A stretch of 41,698 bases of DNA from a virus: positions 1 to 41,698 of IMG/VR virus record IMGVR_UViG_3300048927_000267. The stretch is one strand, 5' to 3'. Made by a program: the position numbers and the translations under genes. The notes beneath the pieces are model-generated. The model worked only from the letters and a program-made list of their open reading frames with translations. It ran no database searches and had not been told where the DNA came from. Shown piece after piece: positions 1-41,698 of this stretch. The number at the start of each line of letters is the position of its first letter. The stretch's first letter is position 1.

Positions 1-89
1 CCGCCGCGGCGCGATACCGGCGAAGGATGCCGAAGCGCCCTATGGTCGTTGACGCCACCTGGATCACCGGCTAAGCGCCATTTGACCCG
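1..89. other. Left chromosomal flank, upstream of the split tRNA-Gly
   Basis: Host DNA to the left of the prophage. No complete gene fits. Two frames read in from the window edge and stop at 52 and 74, so this could hold the last codons of a host gene, but neither tail is recognisable. In the uninfected chromosome this stretch would be the promoter side of the tRNA-Gly gene that the phage split. Confidence 0.5.
49..77 (+). promoter_or_regulatory. Possible promoter of the original tRNA-Gly gene
   Basis: TTGACG at 49-54 is one mismatch from the -35 consensus. It is followed 17 bp later by TAAGCG (72-77), a poor -10. Transcription would start near 84, a few bases before the tRNA 5' end at 91. 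The -10 is weak, so this is only a candidate. If real, after integration it fires into the prophage rather than into a whole tRNA. Confidence 0.25.
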
Positions 90-127
90 AGCGGGTGTAG
101 CTCAATGGTAGAGCAGCAGCTTCCCAA
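90..127 (+). repeat. attL: attL core: 5' half of tRNA-Gly
   Basis: Thirty-eight bases are identical to 41463-41500. They cover one base before the tRNA and the tRNA from its first base through the D-arm to the end of the anticodon loop (CCCAA). The sequences diverge immediately after, so this copy lacks the anticodon 3' strand, T-arm and acceptor 3' strand. It cannot make a tRNA and is the left prophage junction. Confidence 0.93.
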
Positions 128-169: not shown

Positions 170-207
170 AGTTCCAACATCGAACAATTTACGCACGCTG
201 TTGGAAC
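170..207. promoter_or_regulatory. Left attachment arm: inverted GTTCCAACA motifs
   Basis: GTTCCAACA at 171-179 and its inverse TGTTGGAAC at 199-207 lie 44-80 bp inside attL. The same motif occurs three times just inside attR (41388-41421). In the circular phage these copies would flank the core on both sides, the arrangement expected for arm-type integrase or excisionase sites. Assignment to integrase is inference. No gene is seen in 128-260. Confidence 0.5.
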
Positions 208-8633: not shown

Positions 8634-9364
8634 CAGAACATCTCCCCGCGCAGGGAGGCCGGGCGCTGGAACACCCGCGCCGTCTGATGCTTCGCGATCT
8701 TCTTGTTGATCGGGTTCCAACCCCACATTTTGAGCAGCTTCCCGATCCGATACCGGGTCGGCCAGTCGATATCCTGCAACCCGATGCCGTCTGCGGCCTG
8801 CTGAATGGTCGTTTCCGCGCGACCCTCCAGCCAGATTTTCAGGGGATCGGCCAAAGGGTCGCCGCTATGATCCCCCTCCGCATCGGCGATAACCGGGGGC
8901 AGGCCGACCTGCACCCACAGGTTGCGCGCCGCCTGCGGCCCGAACAGCCGCCGCGCCTCCCGCACGACGCTGACCCCGGCGAGCAGCCGGGGCGGGTCGA
9001 GATCGGCCGAAACCATCGGCGGCGGGTCCATGTCGTGCATGACATAACGGCCCGTGCGGCGAAGCTCGGGCAGCACCTCAGCCGTGACCCATTTGCGGAA
9101 CCGCTCCGCCTCTTCCTTCCGGCTCTTGAAGATCGCGGCGTACATGCCGCTCTCCGAGACGATGCTCATTTCCTGCGGCGAGGAGGGGGTACTCACAATA
9201 TGAGTACCCCTCTCATCCTCATGCAGATTGCGGACCATGTTGCCCGCATCGCGATAGCCCAGCGCCTTCGCCAGATCGCTGGCGACGAACCACGGGTCGC
9301 CCGCGATCATGACGACGCGGACGGGATCTTCTTCGAACTGATATGAAACAAGCGCAGTAAGCAT
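8633..9364 (-). CDS. BRO-N domain antirepressor-like protein
   Basis: A 243-residue protein. Residues about 1-105 show the BRO-N pattern: IAGDPWFVASDLAKALGYRD, then a NLHEDE segment, SESGMYAAIFKSRK and FRKWVTAEVLPELRRTG. BRO-N domains bind DNA and occur in prophage antirepressors. The C-terminal half is helical and may bind DNA or a partner. The start at 9364 has GGAG seven bases upstream. It is out of place, inside the late virion operon between two internal-protein genes, with its own upstream region (9365-9625) and a divergent membrane gene. I read it as a moron that could counter a repressor of a resident or competing phage. Confidence 0.85.
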   Translation of the reverse strand: MLTALVSYQFEEDPVRVVMIAGDPWFVASDLAKALGYRDAGNMVRNLHEDERGTHIVSTPSSPQEMSIVSESGMYAAIFKSRKEEAERFRKWVTAEVLPELRRTGRYVMHDMDPPPMVSADLDPPRLLAGVSVVREARRLFGPQAARNLWVQVGLPPVIADAEGDHSGDPLADPLKIWLEGRAETTIQQAADGIGLQDIDWPTRYRIGKLLKMWGWNPINKKIAKHQTARVFQRPASLRGEMF

Positions 9365-9371
9365 GGACGAT

Positions 9372-9553
9372 CTCCAGTAGAAATCGTCCGACCACAGCTG
9401 ACCAATAGCTTGGTGGCCGGACGTGCCATGATTGGTCTTACCGCCTACTGGAGCGGCGCCCCCGAAGGAGCTCACGACACGCCCGACCATAAAAATCCGC
9501 GCCCACACTGGGCGTGTGGCGCGGGCTGCGCCAGTAGATACAGGGAGACCAAT
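9372..9553. promoter_or_regulatory. Composite repeats in the divergent BRO-N / membrane-gene region
   Basis: Three copies of a two-part element lie in the 261 bp between the divergent genes. CCAGTAG at 9374-9380 pairs with GACCAAT at 9400-9406. The inverse ATTGGTC (9431-9437) pairs with CTACTGG (9445-9451). A further CCAGTAG (9531-9537) pairs with GACCAAT (9547-9553). The first two copies form a nested inverted repeat, extended to CTCCAGTAG/CTACTGGAG. A GC-rich near-palindrome lies at about 9495-9525. These look like operator sites for control of the cassette; the binding protein is unknown, possibly the BRO-N product itself. Confidence 0.5.
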
Positions 9554-26636: not shown

Positions 26637-26660
26637 TGTTCCAACATCGCTGTTCCAACA
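26637..26660 (+). repeat. Tandem TGTTCCAACA motif
   Basis: TGTTCCAACA occurs at 26637-26646 and again at 26651-26660, start to start 14 bp. Each copy is itself a dyad (TGTT-CC-AACA). The same motif forms the arm sites at both prophage ends (171-207 and 41388-41421), with a perfect inverse copy at 41412-41421. A common phage or host protein probably binds all of them. Confidence 0.65.
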
Positions 26661-26921
26661 CGCCCCGAGCGACCCGCGCAAACCCGCAGAAATCCGCCAT
26701 TCTTGCCGACGCGCCGCGCCTGGTCGCGATCAGCGCCGCCGACCCAGCCACCCCGCCGCCCGGCCGGAATTCCGGCCCCGAAAGTTTCGCGGCCGCGCCC
26801 CTCTTTTTGCCCCCTGATCCGCAGGTCCGAAGGGCTGGCATGAAGGGAGATTGTGTTTCCGCCCCCTATTTTATTCCGAAACTGGCGGTTTTCCGTGGGT
26901 TTCAGGTCGCAACGGCGCGCC

Positions 26922-38912: not shown

Positions 38913-39384
38913 CCAATGCCCGAAATGCGCAAGCCGCAGCTGGTCGGACGTGGAGCAGCAGGTGACGGACTTCTACGCCGCCACGCTCCGCGTCTGCGGA
39001 AACTGTGCCACCGCGTGGGAGCCGTTCGAGCAGGCCGATCTGCTCGACGATGACGATCGCCATTCCAGCTTCAAACATCCTTGTGACAACTGCGCATTCC
39101 GGAAGGGATCGCCAGAGCAGCGCGACAAGGAGGGGTGGGAAAGTAAGATGATCTCACTATCGTTCGGCAACAGCTTTCACTGTCACAAGGGCGTGCCCGT
39201 CACGCCCGACAGCAAGAACGGCTTCGACTATCCGACTGATCGCAGAAAGCTCCGCCTGTGTAGGGGATATCTGAATTCGATCGTCGGCCCGCGCTTGAAC
39301 GAGCTCGCGCGCAAATATGAGCCGACCGACAGTTGCGGGGGCGAAACGCCTTGGATTGACCCGGCCTATCCACCGCGCCCATAA
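38899..39384 (+). CDS. Cysteine-rich protein with zinc-ribbon motifs
   Basis: A 161-residue protein. Residues about 7-45 form a zinc ribbon (CPKC ... CGNC, with a YAATLRVCGNCATAWEPF segment), and a second Cys/His group follows (CDNC at about 62-65, HCH near 93-96). The start at 38899 has GGGGAG four bases upstream and overlaps the previous gene. It ends 29 bp before the integrase. A nucleic-acid-binding or regulatory role is likely from the ribbon, but no family name can be given. Confidence 0.65.
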   Translation: MKGADQCPKCASRSWSDVEQQVTDFYAATLRVCGNCATAWEPFEQADLLDDDDRHSSFKHPCDNCAFRKGSPEQRDKEGWESKMISLSFGNSFHCHKGVPVTPDSKNGFDYPTDRRKLRLCRGYLNSIVGPRLNELARKYEPTDSCGGETPWIDPAYPPRP

Positions 39385-39413
39385 TCACCCCGCCTTATCG
39401 ACGGAAGGCTCCC

Positions 39414-40796
39414 ATGGCAAAAATCGACATACCCGGCCTGGTCATCAAGCGCCGGGACAAGAAACTCTATCACTACTGGCAGCCATCGGCGACGCTGAAA
39501 CGGGCGGGCTGGCAGTCGGTCCCTCTCGGCACGGATCCACGCGCCGCACAACGCGCTGCCGAGCAGCAGAACGACAAGGTCGCCGAATGGCGCGCCGGCG
39601 GCGCTGCGCCGCGCACCGTCAAGAAATTCATCAAGGGCGGCACCGTCGACCAGCTGATCGCCCGCTACATCACCGATCGCTTCCCCGAACTGGGCGAGAA
39701 GACCCGCAAGGAATATCGGACCAAGCTGAACATCATCCAGCGCTGGGCGGGCGCCGAGCAGGTGTCGCACATCGACCGCAAACGCGTCCGCAAATTGAAG
39801 GAAGTATTGCTGCGCCCCGACAAGGATGGCGTGGTGAAGCTGCACCGCGCCGCCGGCGCAATGCGCGTCCTGAAAACCCTGCTCGAATTCGCGATCGACG
39901 CGGGCTTTCTGCCCGAAGACACGCGCAATCCCGCGTCCAACCAGAACATGCCCACGCCGCCGGCGCGTGCGCACATCTGGTCGCAGGCCGCGATCGACGC
40001 CGTGACCGCTGCGGCTATCGAGGAGGGACAGCCCGGCGCCGCGCTCGGCATCCGCCTCGGCCGCGAGATCGGCCAACGCGAGGCCGACATCCTGAAACTG
40101 GTCATCAGCCGATGGATCGAGATCCCGCGCCATAAGCTCAACCCCGAAGATTGGGACGCCCTGGCCGAGCCAAGCATCAATGGTCCGAGCGTCTGGGGCG
40201 TTCGCCTGCGGCAGGGTAAGACCAACCGCTGGGTCGAAATCCCGCTGGTCGGCCAGACCAGGCGCTTGATGGAAACGGCGATCGCCGAGGCGAAGGCCAT
40301 GGGCACGACCGTCATTCTGCATGAAATGGCGATCCCGCAGGAATTTCGCGACGTGACGCAGTTCGAACGGCACTTGGCGCGCTCCTATGCGCGAGAGACC
40401 GGCCGCATCGCCACGCCCGAACAGATCGAGCAGATGGTGCGCGAGGGCTATGTGCCCCGCCCATGGACAGAAACCCGCTTCCAGCGCGCGATTGCCCGCA
40501 TCCGCGACAAGGCGGCCGAGCAGGCCCGAGCCGCCGGCGACGAGGAACTGGCGGCCGAGATCGAGACGGTCGAATTCCGCGACCTGCGCCGCACCGCCGT
40601 CGTATCCCTGGGCGAACTCGGCATCGAGGACCAACTCATCGCCGCCATCACTGGCCACCAGCTGGACCATACCAAGAAGATCCTCGAAACCTACATGCCC
40701 CGCACGACCAAGATGGCGGGCAGGGCGATCGCGCTCCAGCAGGAACGCAGCAACGTCACGCCGATCGACCGGAGCAAGCAGGCCGATGGGCGTTAA
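39414..40796 (+). CDS. int: Tyrosine-family integrase
   Basis: A 460-residue tyrosine recombinase. Residues 1-60 form an arm-binding-type front part, about 75-175 the core-binding helical domain, and 190-440 the catalytic domain. Catalytic residues: Arg222 in GQREADIL, Arg392 in FRDLRRT (Arg stands at 389 where His is usual), His415 in GHQ and the nucleophile Tyr427 in ETYMPR. It directs recombination at the tRNA-Gly core. The gene lies near attR, as is usual. A long insertion around 235-375, before the second Arg, makes it larger than lambda Int (356 residues). Confidence 0.92.
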   Translation: MAKIDIPGLVIKRRDKKLYHYWQPSATLKRAGWQSVPLGTDPRAAQRAAEQQNDKVAEWRAGGAAPRTVKKFIKGGTVDQLIARYITDRFPELGEKTRKEYRTKLNIIQRWAGAEQVSHIDRKRVRKLKEVLLRPDKDGVVKLHRAAGAMRVLKTLLEFAIDAGFLPEDTRNPASNQNMPTPPARAHIWSQAAIDAVTAAAIEEGQPGAALGIRLGREIGQREADILKLVISRWIEIPRHKLNPEDWDALAEPSINGPSVWGVRLRQGKTNRWVEIPLVGQTRRLMETAIAEAKAMGTTVILHEMAIPQEFRDVTQFERHLARSYARETGRIATPEQIEQMVREGYVPRPWTETRFQRAIARIRDKAAEQARAAGDEELAAEIETVEFRDLRRTAVVSLGELGIEDQLIAAITGHQLDHTKKILETYMPRTTKMAGRAIALQQERSNVTPIDRSKQADGR

Positions 40797-41073
40797 CATC
40801 AACATCGAAACAACCGACGGGCAGCGACATCCCGACTGGGACTATACCCGATATGGCGGCGATCGCGATTTCGCCTCAGCCTTCCACGACCTCGATGTAG
40901 ATGAGTGGACCCCGAAAGGCTTCCCCTGGGAGGATGACAGGATCGTGTATCGTCCGAAGGATTTCGCCGCCTTTCGGGCGCTGGCCGCAAAAAGCGAGTG
41001 GCCGGAAAGATGGGCAAAGGCCGCCGATATCCTCGAGACGAACCCTGAATATTGGCTATATTTTTCGTACTGA
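40786..41073 (+). CDS. Small acidic protein after the integrase
   Basis: A 95-residue acidic protein, rich in Asp, Trp and Tyr (RHPDWDYTRYGGDRDFASAF, DVDEWTPKGFPWEDDRIVY). It overlaps the integrase end by 11 bases and so is likely co-translated with it. Small acidic proteins beside integrases can be directionality factors or DNA mimics, but nothing here proves either. Unknown. Confidence 0.6.
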   Translation: MGVNINIETTDGQRHPDWDYTRYGGDRDFASAFHDLDVDEWTPKGFPWEDDRIVYRPKDFAAFRALAAKSEWPERWAKAADILETNPEYWLYFSY

Positions 41074-41102: not shown

Positions 41103-41363
41103 ATGAGCGACCGGAAAAAAATTTTCGATGCCATGCGCGAGATGCGGGACGCTGCCTGGCGATCCGGCAGGACGCCGCGTCGCTGGGAGATCAATGGTGC
41201 GGGGCTGGACGAGCTAATGATGGATGAGCGCCTCACGGGCCGAGACATAAACGCCGGGCTGGTCGGCCAGCCATTTCTCGGGGCACCTATCGCCATGATG
41301 CCCACGCCAGGAAACGGCCCTATGGTTGAACTGATCGTTGACGAACTGCCGCCTCAAAGATAA
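41103..41363 (+). CDS. Last phage gene before attR, unknown
   Basis: An 86-residue protein (MSDRKKIFDAMREMRDAAWR, then GLDELMMDERLTGRDINAGL and a Pro-rich end). The front resembles a short HTH or helix pair. AGGAG lies five bases before the ATG at 41103. It is separated from the attachment arm by 24 bp. Function unknown. Confidence 0.6.
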   Translation: MSDRKKIFDAMREMRDAAWRSGRTPRRWEINGAGLDELMMDERLTGRDINAGLVGQPFLGAPIAMMPTPGNGPMVELIVDELPPQR

Positions 41364-41387: not shown

Positions 41388-41421
41388 ATGTTGGAATTCC
41401 AACATTTCCCATGTTGGAACA
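41388..41421. promoter_or_regulatory. Right attachment arm with palindrome and repeat
   Basis: ATGTTGGAATTCCAACAT (41388-41405) is a perfect 18-bp palindrome, two inverted copies of the arm motif sharing an EcoRI-type centre. TGTTGGAACA follows at 41412-41421, a perfect inverse of the copies at 26637 and 26651. They lie 42-76 bp inside attR and match the left arm motifs at 171-207. Expected arm-type sites for integrase, with the binding protein unproven. Confidence 0.7.
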
Positions 41422-41462
41422 AATCGGCGGAAACGCGGATTTATCTAACAAAATCAACGGTT

Positions 41463-41500
41463 AGCGGGTGTAGCTCAATGGTAGAGCAGCAGCTTCCCAA
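41463..41500 (+). repeat. attR: attR core
   Basis: The right copy of the 38-bp direct repeat, identical to 90-127. It supplies the 5' half of the tRNA from the phage, joined to the host 3' half. The base before it (41462) and the bases after the CCCAA of the anticodon loop differ from attL, which fixes the core limits. Confidence 0.93.
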
Positions 41501-41537
41501 GCTGACGACGGGGGTTCGATTCCCCTCACCCGCTCCA
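41464..41537 (+). tRNA. tRNA-Gly (anticodon CCC)
   Basis: A 74-base cloverleaf with the acceptor stem GCGGGTG pairing with CACCCGC, D-arm GCTC/GAGC, anticodon loop TTCCCAA (anticodon CCC), T-loop TTCGATT, discriminator T and an encoded CCA end. The first pair of the anticodon stem looks like a G-A mismatch. It resembles E. coli tRNA-Gly(CCC). After integration its 5' half and upstream DNA are phage-derived, so its promoter must lie in phage DNA; a possible -10, TATCTA at 41442-41447, is the only candidate seen, without a good -35. Confidence 0.95.
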
Positions 41538-41552
41538 AATTCCTGAAATTCG

Positions 41553-41698
41553 CTATCCGACCTGACGCTTAGCCAATTTGCGCGCCAGCGTGCGGCGGTG
41601 CATGCCCAATCGGCGCGCGGCTTCGGAAATGTTGAAGTCGCTGTCCTTCAAAACCTCATGAATATGCTCCCATTCCAGCGTCTTGATAGATGTCGGAC
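41553..41698 (-). CDS. RegA/PrrA/ActR-type response regulator, C-terminal part
   Basis: The last 47 or so residues of a host gene that runs off the window. The visible part, [38 protein letters not shown], is the Fis-type HTH of the RegA/PrrA/ActR redox response regulators of alphaproteobacteria. These activate respiratory, nitrogen and (in phototrophs) photosynthesis genes with a partner sensor kinase. It converges with the tRNA and ends 15 bp beyond it. Only the DNA-binding end can be judged here. Confidence 0.85.

Follow-up and report, generated by a model that had tools for sequence, protein, structure and literature searches.

The stretch of DNA analysed here (the window, 41,698 nucleotides) corresponds to a complete IMG/VR provirus record and includes short flanks of host DNA. 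Its only complete tRNA gene, a tRNA-Gly(CCC), lies at the right end and is preceded by phage DNA; an exact 38-nt repeat, AGCGGGTGTAGCTCAATGGTAGAGCAGCAGCTTCCCAA, which consists of the one base preceding the tRNA plus tRNA nucleotides 1-37 (the 5' half of the gene), has one copy at either end. An earlier note on this DNA had held that the 5' half of tRNA-Gly is the shared core and that the whole tRNA beginning at 41464 has only phage DNA upstream, and the exact repeat bears this out. The features of the two ends are:

2-52, plus strand: C-terminal part of a host sugar kinase of the PfkB family
49-77, plus strand: host tRNA promoter TTGACG-N17-TAAGCG, now stranded (promoter score; same place in empty sites)
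90-127, plus strand: left att core, the base before the tRNA and tRNA nt 1-37
171-180 (minus strand) and 198-207 (plus strand): two integrase arm-like sites, P' side (TGTTGGAA sites; same pair in the relative L081)
41388-41405 and 41411-41420: P-arm, a palindromic pair and a direct site (same layout in 11 related elements)
41442-41447, plus strand: lone -10-like TATCTA (p 0.44 to 0.62 for the region against shuffles)
41463-41500, plus strand: right att core, phage-borne tRNA 5' half
41464-41537, plus strand: complete tRNA-Gly(CCC) (ARAGORN; Rfam, 69.9 bits)
41494-41500, plus strand: anticodon loop TTCCCAA, likely crossover region
41553-41698, minus strand: C-terminal part of a host response regulator with a Fis-type HTH (homologous to L016 6629-7174; Response_reg, HTH_8)

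The displaced 5' fragment at the left end has the same orientation as the complete tRNA at the right end. No tRNA 3' half follows the left copy at 90-127, its place being taken by phage sequence (TTTCCCGCGC...).

A tRNA-pattern scan located the exact complete tRNA at 40 genome loci, about half of them in Sphingobium; genome contigs searched with a single integrase protein gave no match, and an INPHARED search with the phage DNA returned matches that were almost all tRNA. At the empty site L016 (S. limneticum), the order is PfkB kinase gene, promoter TTGACA-N17-CCATGG, complete tRNA and response regulator. The sugar kinase gene of L016 (PfkB match of 163 bits) ends in RRGAIPARDADAPYG, the counterpart of which, RRGAIPAKDAEAPYGR, is encoded at 2-52 of the window, and the right flank corresponds to the response regulator of L016 (87% DNA identity over 239 bp, tRNA included). 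The score of the host promoter at 49-77 is attained by 0.4% of random phage windows (p 0.02 against shuffles). Since the flanks that are split in the window are joined around the tRNA in L016, the prophage lies inside the tRNA gene, with the 5' part of the gene replaced at the right end. The case that would speak against this is a left flank with a tRNA 3' half of its own; it was sought and not seen, and the L016 order agrees with 5' replacement. At the level of sequence, the comparison shows that at the right end the phage copy of the 5' half rebuilds a complete gene, now preceded by phage DNA, and that the host promoter is left 41 kb away at the left end, together with the broken tRNA copy. 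The window therefore combines a complete tRNA with element DNA upstream, a displaced fragment, a matching empty site and a tyrosine integrase, as looked for in a 5'-type element. We conclude that a temperate phage has almost certainly integrated into the tRNA-Gly(CCC) gene of a Sphingobium-like host and that the locus is its right att site.

Elsewhere in the phage genome, the minus strand carries a C4 antisense RNA at 9409-9494 (Rfam RF01695, 56 bits; cut-off 45) and, immediately downstream of it, a Bro-N antirepressor-like gene at 8636-9343. This pair is reminiscent of C4/ant immunity control in phages P1 and P7.

Related elements and the probable site of crossover

Relatives were found with the 37-nt half gene and the integrase as queries:

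G093 (41 kb), G289 (41.6 kb), G340 (9.6 kb), G235 (7.3 kb) and the viral L086/L088: 5'-type elements, both ends located
G004 (1.8 kb): 5'-type remnant without integrase, both ends located
G223: 5'-type element, two ends on two contigs
L081, L115: free attP forms
L109, L111, L128: tRNA-Gly(TCC) as target
G003/L118, L113: integrase family of the window, 3' part carried (nt 31-74)
L136: integrase family of the window, at tRNA-Arg, same arms

The 5'-type core ends at nt 37 in the window, L081 and L086/L088, and the 3'-type fragments start at nt 31, so that the two overlap in TTCCCAA, the seven-base anticodon loop. We infer that crossover probably takes place within this loop (nt 31-37), in which case the half carried by the element would decide which end keeps the gene. 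The member at tRNA-Arg (L136 2793-2958, in G080) has its integrase beside a tRNA-Arg(ACG) with the same palindromic TTGGAATTCCAA arms; the integrase family appears to have changed its tRNA target while its arm sites were kept.

G340, whose integrase is clearly a Phage_integrase, and G235 form a second element family with TGTAAA repeats, to which G005 and G006 probably also belong. In G005 (C14:9820, C30:162844 and C30:182363; L104, L096), tRNA-Gly is present as two 5' half copies and one complete gene, with phage-like arms before the middle copy; the arrangement resembles 5'-type elements in tandem, with metal-resistance-like genes. G463, which has arm-like DNA upstream of an intact tRNA and neither an integrase nor a half copy within 50 kb, is a possible remnant only.

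Transcription of the rebuilt tRNA gene

TGTTGGAA occurs seven times in the window against 0.46 expected, a count reached in 0 of 100 shuffles, and five of these sites (41389+, 41397-, 41412+, 172- and 199+) surround the two att sites. Arm sites had previously been proposed in the upstream region, and this clustering at att substantiates them. The remaining pair lies far from att at 26638-26661, between a terminase small-subunit-like ORF and a primase-like ORF, with no obvious gene there. The elements of the family to which the window belongs have in common a palindromic pair of arms and a third arm, which in most cases lies about 45 nt from the tRNA. The IHF consensus is WATCAANNNNTTR. Directly before the tRNA, this consensus is matched within 2 mismatches in 12 of the 17 phage flanks and in none of the 27 host flanks; nine of the 12 matches end exactly on tRNA base 1, and the match in the window is out of this usual register. 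Base composition can account for some of this excess but not for the fixed position, raising the possibility that IHF binds before the rebuilt tRNA.

Promoters were scored with two matrices, one trained on host tRNA-Gly promoters and one for sigma-70 in general, and compared with dinucleotide shuffles of the same flanks. The 17 phage-side flanks include that of G006, admitted on its TGTAAA arms (no 5' half was found and the contig starts 38 kb upstream); L066 and L070, suspected from their flanks, were left out. The signal in these 17 flanks was no better than in the shuffles (Fisher p 0.91 and 0.78 with the host-trained matrix, 0.28 and 0.15 with the general one), a result that concerns sigma-70-type promoters and leaves room for other types. 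Eight left, host-side flanks of such elements exceed the shuffles (p 1e-6 and 0.004). For a local sigma-70 promoter, the rank against random windows was slightly better (top 13%), an advantage that was lost against composition-matched shuffles. Taken together, the DNA directly upstream of the rebuilt tRNA looks like an attachment arm, with arm sites for the integrase and, in the majority of relatives, an IHF-like site, and not like a dedicated promoter.

Transcription might nevertheless start within this arm, a few bases before the gene, from a weak promoter on the TATCTA at 41442-41447. The hexamer lies where the earlier note had placed it, and in empty sites of the Sphingorhabdus type (L015, L030) the same hexamer, again -10-like, stands 14 nt ahead of this tRNA; fair matches also exist in some phage flanks, such as TTGCAA-N17-CATTCG in L138, and the intact tRNA of G463 has arm-like DNA upstream with no integrase nearby. 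However, there is no -35 at 16-18 nt from TATCTA, the phage flanks as a group do not rise above the shuffles, and what is conserved between relatives is the arm sites and nothing promoter-like. We consider a start in the arm unlikely. The proposal that the phage must supply transcription of the tRNA thus stands as regards separation from the host promoter and dependence on phage sequence, but a promoter within 41388-41463 is unsupported, and a better candidate is found 2.1 kb upstream, in front of the integrase operon:

39356-39385, plus strand: putative integrase operon promoter TTGACC-N18-CATAAT (10/12 consensus matches; same hexamers in L107)
39414-40796, plus strand: tyrosine integrase, 460 aa (PHROG 1 integrase, 1e-16)
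40789-41073, plus strand: small gene overlapping the end of int (homologue beside the G223 integrase, 5e-14)
41103-41363, plus strand: small gene, 86 aa (homologue beside the L107 integrase, 60% identity, 4e-25)

The putative promoter scores at p 0.003 to 0.015 against shuffles. The integrase gives 16.3 bits against PF00589, which is below the cut-off, and its residues R222, R392, H415 and Y427 are conserved in relatives. Each small gene has a homologue next to a related integrase, which lends credence to the order int - orf - orf - arms - tRNA. The integrase and both small genes read toward the tRNA, and no plus-strand terminator was found between the promoter and the tRNA.

In nine elements whose integrase reads toward the tRNA, a TTGAC-type promoter lies 25-39 nt before int. 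Within the 110 nt before int, a sigma-70-type promoter is commoner in these nine than in shuffles (Fisher 1.7e-9; p at most 0.03 in seven of the nine), and lower scores are obtained for six relatives that either follow the 3' mode or have their integrase at the opposite end (Mann-Whitney p 0.009), although the elements compared are related, so that their effective number is smaller and these statistics overstate independence. A promoter match is nonetheless present in two of the six comparison integrases, those at tRNA-Arg and tRNA-Met, and the match of the L081 integrase is poor (p 0.3). In G340, 47 nt separate the end of the integrase gene from the tRNA, and both are on one strand. Integrase read-through cannot serve the tRNA of G289 and L086, since the integrase of these elements lies at the opposite end; a different phage gene reads toward the tRNA there.

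We propose that the promoter at 39356-39385 would start a transcript running int - orf - orf - tRNA, in which the tRNA would be the last gene, reached by read-through, and that this transcript would then be cut to yield the mature tRNA. Read-through from the integrase promoter is favoured by the phage flanks without promoter signal, the TTGAC-type int promoters, the lack of a terminator, the G340 layout, the case of G223 described below and the precedent of pTN3-like elements. Against it, int promoters are often weak or repressed in lysogens, and we put the chances of read-through at about even.

Alternatively, the tRNA-Gly(CCC) could be silent or nearly so in the lysogen and its loss tolerated, which we consider improbable. 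tRNA-Gly(UCC) can read GGG by wobble, so phage-supplied expression of the CCC gene is not certain, and typed relatives have one separate tRNA-Gly(TCC) gene beside the CCC gene. A silent gene would also suit the tRNA-Gly(CCC) at L185 1501-1574 in G223, which has altered bases in its D loop and also at position 37 (anticodon loop TTCCCAT) and whose upstream flank has no recognisable host promoter. These base changes fit relaxed constraint in what is a single case, a gene possibly decaying after an older 5'-type insertion. However, a CCC-like match is retained in nearly all of 94 Sphingobium genomes, and the same integrase family also uses tRNA-Gly(TCC), whose product is the sole reader of GGA. 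In G223, the only tRNA-Gly(TCC) found in the draft genome sits in a 5'-type arrangement, with its half copy on another contig behind a host TTGACA promoter; as the sole copy found, it must be transcribed from phage DNA. It is scarcely credible that the left half is the native gene and the window a normal 3'-replacing prophage viewed in reverse: the 3' mode does occur at this tRNA among related integrases (G003/L118), but the left end has no tRNA 3' half, and the reading is refuted by the empty sites, which join the promoter-bearing left flank, a complete tRNA and the right flank.

The explanation as a whole, in which 5'-half replacement, crossover in the loop and arm DNA upstream are combined with integrase read-through, draws on empty sites that have both flanks and on 5' and 3' cores that overlap exactly in nt 31-37, and we judge it somewhat more probable than its negation. 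More tentatively, the host tRNA may be the last gene of the integrase operon throughout a group of alphaproteobacterial phages, whose lysogens, including those with a sole tRNA-Gly(UCC), would depend on the int promoter for an essential tRNA. If so, tRNA supply would be tied to integrase transcription and loss of the int region would be penalised.

Comparison with known systems

Replacement of the 3' part of a tRNA gene was said in the earlier note to be usual, and the Islander survey agrees: in its published counts, 3760 of 3919 islands have a 3' fragment and 159 a 5' fragment (PMC4383910). The 5' exception is already described (PMC4383910, PMC8371274), and sites in the anticodon loop are a known class (PMC4383910). 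As in the window, the 5'-fragment islands of Islander have the tRNA gene rebuilt downstream of the element and the displaced 5' fragment upstream; the passages of that report covered here count such islands and leave the mode of tRNA transcription untreated (PMC4383910). Little literature was found on 5'-half integration in bacteria, and the type of system is known but uncommon there. Replacement of the 5' half, about 4% of tRNA islands, has rarely been examined, and it can now be studied in a set of bacterial cases that comprises empty sites, free attP forms, an integrase family in which both modes occur and one apparently sole essential tRNA. With this set, expression of a rebuilt tRNA without a promoter of its own becomes directly testable.

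The closest contrast is provided by the 3'-replacing G003/L118, which shares with the window the tRNA-Gly(CCC) target, a related integrase (42% identity) and the same inferred crossover loop. Unlike the window, it carries the 3' half, so its rebuilt gene retains the host TTGACC promoter. In tRNA-dependent lysogeny (PMC10865867), integration likewise puts a host tRNA at risk and obliges the phage to compensate, but the tRNA is not rebuilt there and a separate phage tRNA gene has its own strong promoter, whereas the phage in the window rebuilds the tRNA at the junction and carries no separate one.

The pTN3-like archaeal integrases, for which attB is the 5' half of a tRNA gene, are described in PMC8371274 (citing Cossu 2017; Krupovic and Bamford 2008), where the integrase promoter is said to drive expression of the rebuilt tRNA and the arrangement is reported as seldom met in bacteria. 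In both systems the integrase lies upstream of the rebuilt tRNA and is co-directional with it, with a promoter that is putative here. The pTN3-like elements are archaeal and their integrase gene is split by integration; here the host is bacterial and the integrase intact, the att core not being inside the gene, as in a suicidal integrase, but 667 nt past its end. The phage in the window would therefore work like the pTN3-like elements without being a member of that group.
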